A stretch of DNA of 64,000 nucleotides from assembly GCF_000688295.1 (NCBI RefSeq), contig NZ_JHZF01000013.1:1178001-1242000 (forward strand), written 5' to 3'. Below are positions 38,311 to 40,792 of the stretch, piece after piece. The DNA is from Pseudooceanicola nanhaiensis DSM 18065 (lineage in GTDB: Bacteria; Pseudomonadota; Alphaproteobacteria; Rhodobacterales; Rhodobacteraceae). The notes under the pieces were generated by a model. It was not told the DNA's origin and made no database searches. It saw only the letters and a program-made list of their open reading frames with translations. Position numbers and translations under genes: made by a program. The first letter of the stretch is position 1. The number at the start of each line of letters is the position of its first letter.

Positions 38311-38844
38311 TCAGAGCCCGTCGAAGGCGCAGAGCGTGTGGAGCGTCATGCCCAGACCCTCGAGCCGCTTGCGGCCGCCGAGCTCGGGCAGGTCGATGAT
38401 GAAGGCGCAGCCCGCGATCACCCCGCCCAGCTGTTCGATCAGCGCGATCCCGGCCTCGGCGGTGCCGCCGGTGGCGAGCAGGTCGTCGACCAGCAGGATC
38501 GTCTCGCCGGCCGCGATGGCATCGTCGTGGATCTCGACCTCGGCCTCGCCGTATTCCAGCTGGTACTTGCGCGAGAGCGTCGCGGCGGGCAGCTTGCCCG
38601 CCTTGCGCACCGGCACGAAGCCGCAGGAGAGCTGGTGCGCCACCGCGCCGCCAAGGATGAAGCCGCGCGCCTCGAGGCCCACCACCTTGTCGATCCGCCG
38701 CCCGGCCCAGGGCGCGACCAGCCGGTCGACCGCCATGCGGAAGCCGCGCGGGTCGGCGAAGAGCGTGGTCACGTCCCGGAAGAGGATGCCCTCGTGCGGG
38801 AAGTCGGGGATGGTGCGGATGTAGTCGCGCAGGTCGTCGGACAT
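38311..38844 (-). CDS. apt: Adenine phosphoribosyltransferase
   Basis: A 177-residue type I phosphoribosyltransferase that salvages adenine to AMP. The PRPP-binding motif is [17 protein letters not shown] near residue 120, and the N-terminal hood region reads [19 protein letters not shown] 38844 gives the usual APT length; a much longer open frame upstream is spurious. It and mtnP (39923) are on the same strand with two rightward genes between them. Confidence 0.95.
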
Positions 38845-39056: not shown

Positions 39057-39170
39057 ATGAGATATCTGCTTCCGCTCCTTCTGCTTCTTGCCGCACCCGC
39101 CCTGCGCGCGGACGACGGCTGTTCCGACAAGCATTACCGCTGCGCCCCCGGCGTCTGCTGCCCCAGGTGA
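39057..39170 (+). CDS. Small secreted Cys-rich peptide (37 residues)
   Basis: A short frame of 37 codons. Residues 1-18 are a signal peptide ([18 protein letters not shown]) and the mature part is 19 residues with four Cys in the pattern C-x6-C-x4-CC, enough for two disulfides. A ribosome-binding AAGGT lies about 10 bases upstream. The stop is 10 bases before the ATG of the downstream membrane-protein gene, so the two look co-transcribed. No known family is recognised; it is too short to be listed by most gene callers. Confidence 0.6.
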
Positions 39171-39180
39171 GGGCGCGACC

Positions 39181-39915
39181 ATGCTGCGGACATTTATGAT
39201 AACGCTGGCGAGTTTCGTCGCCGCCCTGGTCGCGTTCTCGTTCCTGATGGGCGTCAGCAAGATGGACGTCTCGATCAAGCACGAGATGCAGCGCCATGTC
39301 GTCGCCGAGCCCTTCGAGGCGGGCGACGTGATCGAGGTCTCGCCGGACGGGCAGCGCATCCTCTCGGTGCTCTGCCCGTCGCGGCTGCCCGCCGCCAAGC
39401 GGCTCTCGACCGAGGTGCAATCGGGTTATTACAACATCGTCGACCGCTCGCAGGAGAAGTTCATCGCCTTCGTGCGGAACATGCAGGGCGTGCTGGGCGT
39501 GCCGGTGACCGAAGCGACGCCGCTGCCCTTCTCGGACATGCTGCCCTTCGTGGGCGAGGTGAACCGCGTCTCGGGCGATTTCGAGGAGATGCTGGACACG
39601 GCGTGCTTCTGCCGGATCGCCCGCGCGGTGGTCGAAGCCCGGAGCATCGCCTGCGTGGTCGAGAAATCGCTGGTCGAGACCGAGCTTGTGACCAGCCCCA
39701 CCGGGCCGCTGCTGAAGCGCCGGACGATGGGGCTGTCCTTCCGCGAGGCGCCTTACGAGTTCGACGATCTCTCGGCGCTCGAACCGCTCTGCCCCGGGCT
39801 CAACACGGCTGCCATCGCGCCGAAATCGCAGCAATGCGTCGGGCAGAGCGGGTTCACCTTCGACGTGCGGGCGAAATCCAGGATCGGGCTGATCCGGGAG
39901 ATCGCGCTCGACTGA
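39181..39915 (+). CDS. Membrane-anchored protein of unknown function
   Basis: A 244-residue protein with one N-terminal hydrophobic helix (residues ~4-24); the remainder is soluble and probably periplasmic. Six Cys are present, including the pair CFC near residue 141 and others near 62, 158, 205 and 220, spaced as if for disulfides or a metal site. AGGG precedes the ATG at 39181. It follows the Cys-rich peptide gene by 10 bases and converges on mtnP. No domain is recognised. Confidence 0.7.
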
Positions 39916-39922
39916 CGGAGGC

Positions 39923-40792
<870 letters not shown>

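Follow-up and report, generated by a model that had tools for sequence, protein, structure and literature searches.

Short exported cysteine-containing proteins in described systems

Among the described systems closest to the locus reported here are two upstream translational regulators, CutF of Rhodobacter capsulatus, which acts on CutO, and CruR, which acts on bfrG, as far as the portions of the two accounts drawn on here go (PMC9973294, PMC9426467). In those portions, CutF-like proteins are shorter than 150 aa, carry an N-terminal export signal and a PP within the last 15 residues, and are followed by a metal homeostasis gene, and in CutF itself a stem-loop shields the downstream ribosome-binding site (PMC9973294); CruR/DUF2946 is presented with a CXXC and a C-terminal RAPP 45 residues apart (PMC9426467).

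A two-gene unit found in alphaproteobacteria resembles both in outline. With CutF it shares a short Cys-containing ORF, an N-terminal export signal and an exported or membrane protein encoded 3' in the same operon, and with CruR the position as first gene of the operon, the export signal and the cysteines. The CutF-like combination of size and export signal is present in the family (36–57 aa, with an AXA-like site, by a simple pattern, in 21 of 22 peptides). Measured against the same portions of the two accounts, the differences are that PP occurs in 1 of the 22 peptides, that there is no consistent occluding stem-loop and no recognised metal gene 3' (PMC9973294), and that CXXC and RAPP occur in 0/22, with no DUF2946 match in the six peptides scanned (PMC9426467).

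The peptide gene

The window is a stretch of 64,000 nucleotides from contig NZ_JHZF01000013.1 of Pseudooceanicola nanhaiensis DSM 18065, whose genome comprises 4.66 Mb. A first-pass annotation of the window had proposed a gene for a secreted Cys-rich peptide, and the 37-codon ORF, the signal-peptide-like start, the C-x6-C-x4-CC arrangement and the 10 bases separating the ORF from the next gene, all of which it described, are present in the sequence (Table 1). The ribosome-binding site that it mentioned is there as well and is moderate, an AAGG about 10 bases 5' of the ATG, and predicted cleavage after LRA would leave the same 19-residue mature peptide. The Shine-Dalgarno-like sequence of the partner gene, AGGTGAGGG, overlaps the stop codon of the peptide gene.

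Table 1. Features of the two-gene unit and its flanks (positions are those of the window)
Feature	Position	Strand	Basis
Exported Cys micropeptide gene, 37 aa	39057..39170, stop included	+	ORF; relatives elsewhere (21 peptides from other genomes)
Segment resembling a Sec signal peptide: MR, then a core rich in leucine; probable cleavage after LRA	39057..39110	+	Sequence inspection; end estimated
Conserved four-cysteine core, 16 aa	39120..39167	+	Alignments of 9, 13, 14, then all 22 peptides; four Cys invariant
Spacer, 10 bases, peptide stop to partner ATG	39171..39180	+	Sequence; partner ATG at 39181
Partner, 244 aa, putative N-terminal membrane anchor and periplasmic domain, 6 Cys, subfamily A	39181..39915	+	Topology predicted from sequence
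apt, adenine phosphoribosyltransferase, flanking, outside unit	38311..38844	-	Pfam Pribosyltran E 1.9e-14
mtnP, methylthioadenosine phosphorylase type, flanking, outside unit	39923..40792	-	Pfam PNP_UDP_1 E 2e-42

The 64 kb of the window contain one instance of the motif C-x6-C-x(3-4)-CC ending no more than two residues from a stop, and 20 shuffles of the window in two-base blocks (1.28 Mb) contain none; a single unrelated chance match, L091, was met in 399,059 bases examined. Because the motif recurs directly 5' of homologous partners in distant genera, chance is excluded. The 37-codon ORF at 39057-39170 is very probably a real gene, one that is easily overlooked and whose product appears to be exported. 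It opens a conserved unit of two genes with a scattered occurrence in alphaproteobacteria.

An ORF that arose fortuitously 5' of a real gene might be suspected from the mere 37 codons, the GC-rich DNA and the moderate ribosome-binding site, and also from two of the four pairs in which codons of the mature core were compared, where amino-acid changes outnumber silent ones (silent to non-silent 3:4 in L047/L106 and 1:6 in window/L047). Comparison already contradicts this reading, to which we give next to no weight: 22 related peptides have invariant cysteines, 20 of them are encoded directly 5' of homologous genes, and in the other two pairs the mature motif changes mostly silently (5:1 in L101/L103 and 7:1 in L102/L075).

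Recovery of relatives

A plain search with the window partner had no match at E <= 0.001 in 146 of 147 related genomes, the remaining one being its own, and a partner scan of a genome collection (84,980 species) gave one relative, in Salipiger pentaromativorans, with 53% identity; directly 5' of that partner lies a 46-codon ORF ending CPETHYQCGPGICCPK. With a two-sequence partner profile, four distant partners appeared at E <= 2e-5 among 394 family genomes, all four with a four-Cys ORF immediately 5' (10 of the 394 genomes matched at E <= 0.1, the window's own included, and the five weaker ones stand outside the counts). A six-sequence partner profile matched 8 of the 394 genomes, and the three new ones likewise have the peptide.

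Searches with the peptide extended the family further. Among the 394 genomes, 73 matched at E <= 0.1, which revealed L073-L076; the new loci inspected were L073-L078, L080, L082, L088 and L091, of which these four were kept, the remaining weak matches standing outside the counts. L074-L076 have partners of a second subfamily, B; a profile of it matches 4 of the 394 genomes, and the fourth member, L098, again has a peptide. A further search with the peptide, in 225 genomes belonging to the order, yielded 11 matches: two already known, eight new (L099-L106) and one, L107, to a different, larger Cys-rich protein. The peptides number 22 in total (the window, L047, L049-L052, L063-L065, L073-L076 and L098-L106), and peptide counts are lower bounds, since the true peptide of one genome (G290) was missed by the 394-genome peptide search and recovered later.

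A peptide that stands without a partner is visible only in the peptide searches (394 and 225 genomes), and a partner without a peptide only in the partner searches (the 84,980-species scan and the 394-genome profiles); among the partners confirmed by the latter, none was without a peptide. In the window's own genome a second peptide match, L002 (E 0.56), was dropped as a candidate paralogue in view of its unrelated context; of the weak same-genus matches (E 0.014 and worse) L028 alone was inspected, and none was added to the family.

Features of the peptides

Every one of the 22 peptides keeps the four cysteines, with the CC placed 2-5 residues before the stop. Proline follows the first cysteine in 21/22 and glycine follows the second in 21/22, the window peptide being the exception to both. 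The loop between the second and third cysteines varies by one residue, as would be tolerated in a disulfide loop, and two peptides (L099, L106) have C-terminal extensions past the motif. Leaders are hydrophobic, the AXA-like sites lie 5' of the first cysteine, and a lipobox ([LVI][ASTVI][GAS]C) occurs in 0/22. As judged by eye together with the simple AXA-like pattern, the leaders look Sec-like when set against the double-glycine leader, with its dedicated exporter, of bacteriocins; about 1.5 kb around most loci was covered. The proposal of a real gene for an exported Cys-rich peptide is well supported.

The partner protein

The adjoining membrane protein, named from the outset as a possible partner and as rich in cysteine, fits both descriptions well: all six cysteines of the 244-aa protein lie beyond residue 35, and a homologous partner is encoded 3' of 20 of the 22 peptides, 12 in subfamily A and 8 in subfamily B. 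The bacteriocin, signal and metal-chelator roles that the first-pass annotation also suggested are candidates only. Of eight partners that came later, seven are recognised in the expected subfamily by profiles built from the first 13 (single-comparison E 2e-64 to 1.8e-34). The eighth, at L104, reaches a best single-comparison E of only 0.0022 against the partner profiles, and we treat it as a similar protein of tentative homology. At L073 there is no partner, and a convergent gene comes next. Comparison by hhalign establishes homology between subfamilies A and B (91.3%, E 9.3e-7; 70%, E 4e-5 in another comparison), and their matches fall in different genomes (8 and 4 of the 394).

All 21 partners have four or six cysteines beyond residue 35, a cut chosen to leave out the anchor; six of them have further cysteines before it. 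In subfamily A, four cysteines are invariant, and C144 and C204 (the latter judged within one alignment column) are both present in 7/12 and both absent in 5/12. This constant pairing in presence or absence suggests a C144-C204 disulfide, and the even cysteine counts suggest structural disulfides more broadly. The counts bear on the idea that the four peptide cysteines bind copper or zinc in the periplasm, or shuttle disulfides with the partner. A histidine accompanies the four cysteines in 11 of 12 A peptides and a CxC motif is found in 7 of 12 A partners, as such metal or redox handling might lead one to expect, but the histidine is absent from all 8 B peptides and the CxC from 5 of the 12 A partners, and the neighbours within about 1.5 kb include no evident metal gene, being mainly what we take to be mtnP, apt and a transporter of LysE type. 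With the cysteine numbers pointing to a structural role, metal or redox handling seems to us quite improbable.

Comparison with known families and structures

Both genes gave weak matches at most in the family and structure searches made here. Against Pfam, neither the window peptide nor the window partner matched at E <= 1; nine A partners had weak matches (best E 0.018), as did ten further partners (best E 0.11; L098 and L106 were outside these scans), and the best of six peptides reached E 0.037. Against NCBIfam, the window partner had no match at E <= 1, six A partners had weak ones (best E 0.044, in a scan that covered subfamily A), and among 14 peptides the best reached E 0.0068, at 16 bits against a cut-off of 40.

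Comparison of the partner with PDB profiles gave at best E 0.076, to a RuvB-like helicase without evident relation, and that of nine peptides E 0.22 (2m7p), which is not significant. A CxxGYFPCGN-like stretch is shared with the first lobe of an LDL-receptor class A module; that module has six cysteines, whereas the micropeptide has four. A two-sequence structure model was poor (pLDDT 51.2), and Foldseek with that model returned nothing at E <= 0.001. A limited literature search found no description of such a peptide-partner pair.

Gene spacing and the case for a regulatory leader

Peptide and partner genes are separated by -4 to +13 bases, the -4 values hinging on the ATG chosen; at L106 the gap is 4 bases from coordinates. 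Such closeness would suit a regulatory leader (uORF), whose translation would set that of the partner through ribosome stalling, through the supply of cysteine or through a nascent chain that senses metal. The peptide gene is 5' wherever the partner exists and is very short, its conserved portion adjoins the stop codon, and CutF-like proteins too, in the part of their description used here, join signal peptides and cysteines, some with short or overlapping spacers (PMC9973294). In the window, moreover, the Shine-Dalgarno region is less accessible than in shuffles (0.28 vs 0.47), and 12 of 21 loci fall below their own shuffle mean.

Taken over all 21 loci, however, the region around the partner start has no excess structure (mean MFE z -0.32), and the Shine-Dalgarno region is unpaired at about 0.40 on average against 0.43 in shuffles; at the window partner start, too, overall folding energy is ordinary (z 0.2). 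The one PP within the last 15 residues belongs to L103, the window peptide having none, and the motif is compatible with an indel of one residue and with extra residues at the C terminus (L099, L106). A chain of 36-57 residues is mostly within the ribosome at termination, which would make sensing outside the membrane unlikely. The short size, the motifs missing in 21/22 and the want of a consistent occluding structure lead us to regard a regulatory leader as the less likely function, and unlikely in itself.

Matching of peptide and partner types

Peptide type tracks partner type. The histidine at motif position 5 is found in 11/12 A peptides and in 0/8 B peptides, and distances among peptides correlate with distances among partners (rho 0.62, n=21), also after the mtnP distance has been removed (partial 0.59, n=17; p <= 0.0002). 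Taken separately, subfamily A shows a weak correlation (rho 0.23, n=12, p 0.04; 0.25 with the mtnP distance removed, n=10, p 0.04) and subfamily B none (rho -0.18, n=8, p 0.77), so the overall correlation comes mostly from the A/B split. Two genes inherited together as a cassette would yield the same correlation without any binding.

We favour, with about even confidence, a disulfide-bonded exported micropeptide that works with a co-translated envelope partner as its ligand or small subunit, the pair moving as a cassette. The 37-aa product would be exported via Sec, and its mature part, about 16-20 residues in most members, would fold around two disulfides. It would be translated together with the membrane-anchored partner, whose exported domain may be held by two or three disulfides, and would bind that domain in the periplasm as a dedicated ligand or small subunit; the pair would travel between genomes as one unit. 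This explanation draws on the observed gene conservation, adjacency, type matching and even cysteine numbers. Several findings speak against the ligand model: the partnerless peptide at L073, the weak homology of the L104 partner, the weak correlation within A and the lack of one within B, the low confidence of the structure model, and the failure of silent changes to dominate in window/L047 and L047/L106.

A more specific form, which we put forward tentatively and think rather doubtful, is a dedicated peptide-receptor pair in the Gram-negative envelope, in which a disulfide ligand encoded by a gene and about 16 residues long, remarkably short by bacterial standards, would be specific for its own co-translated membrane partner and would pass from species to species, in interchangeable types, at a single place in the chromosome. 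For small-protein biology the unit is a clean test object, a minimal four-Cys micropeptide whose partner comes with it genetically. Because it exists in two subfamilies, has conserved flanks and is naturally missing from sister species, deletion, swap and binding tests are direct.

Genomic site and distribution

In the window the pair sits between two genes on the opposite strand which, going beyond their Pfam matches, we presume to be apt and mtnP. In the stretch examined at each locus, mtnP is near 17 of the 21 partner loci; at L065 and L099 that stretch has no mtnP but does have apt or what is presumably a LysE-type neighbour, and L049 and L104 are located elsewhere. The unit is patchy, being present in 12 of 394 family genomes. 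Within one genus (g229) a type A pair (L105) in one species and a type B pair (L102) in another both adjoin mtnP. The unit would thus behave like a cassette that genomes gain, lose and exchange.

Stop codons or frameshifts in close relatives had been named beforehand as grounds for doubting the gene, and no such case was found. Around 20 other same-genus mtnP loci, covered as mtnP with 1.5 kb on each side, neither profile searches nor the motif detected the pair (one mtnP match was partial, and three of the stretches did not include apt); in five of the 20 (L007-L009, L015 and L017) hardly any space is left between apt and mtnP. The single apt-mtnP interval read, 625 bases in a close sister (L005:876-1500), holds another gene, presumably LysE-type, and not a decayed pair. 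A presumed LysE-type transporter also neighbours the pair in several other genomes. At L073 (1498-1611) a typical peptide gene without partner adjoins such a gene and faces one of LuxR type; either the partner has been lost or the peptide acts alone.

Patchiness, together with a layout in which a small exported peptide precedes a membrane protein, would also fit an antibacterial peptide with its own membrane immunity protein, as would A and B types beside mtnP in one genus and the position of the L104 pair, with its tentative partner, near transposase-like and presumably dnd-like genes. Yet the peptide core is conserved while the partner evolves fast, L073 has a peptide without a partner, and bacteriocin immunity proteins are not usually as large as this partner, which has about 215-260 aa and ordered cysteines. 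The small disulfide peptide recalls gallocin A, which the part of its description used here gives as a streptococcal bacteriocin made of two peptides; the unit described here would pair one putative peptide with a large membrane partner. We consider a bacteriocin quite improbable, and keep to a ligand or small subunit as the preferred reading.

Single-sequence searches gave no match to the window partner in plasmids, phages or viral contigs and none to the window peptide in plasmids; this mode missed most family members in genomes, so that these results exclude close relatives only. In L108 (4408-16000; genome G478) the L104 pair lies between an ORF which we take to be caspase-like, others presumably transposase-like, and a run resembling dnd phosphorothioation genes.

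Upstream of the unit, a CtrA-like site (TTAA-N7-TTAA, <=1 mismatch) occurs within 200 bases 5' at 6 of the first 14 loci (L050, L063, L064, L065, L073 and L075), against a Markov mean of 0.50, with 0/2000 samples reaching six and 19 of 1708 tiled control windows positive. It is absent in the window and found in none of eight fresh loci (Markov mean 0.92). With 6/22 overall and none of the fresh loci positive, CtrA control was rejected as a general feature.

A larger multi-Cys protein is encoded next to an aspartate carbamoyltransferase-like gene at L088:1408-2097 and L107:490-2085. The L088 protein bears near its start a CGTTCC-type unit similar to the micropeptide, and this larger protein is a possible longer relative of it.
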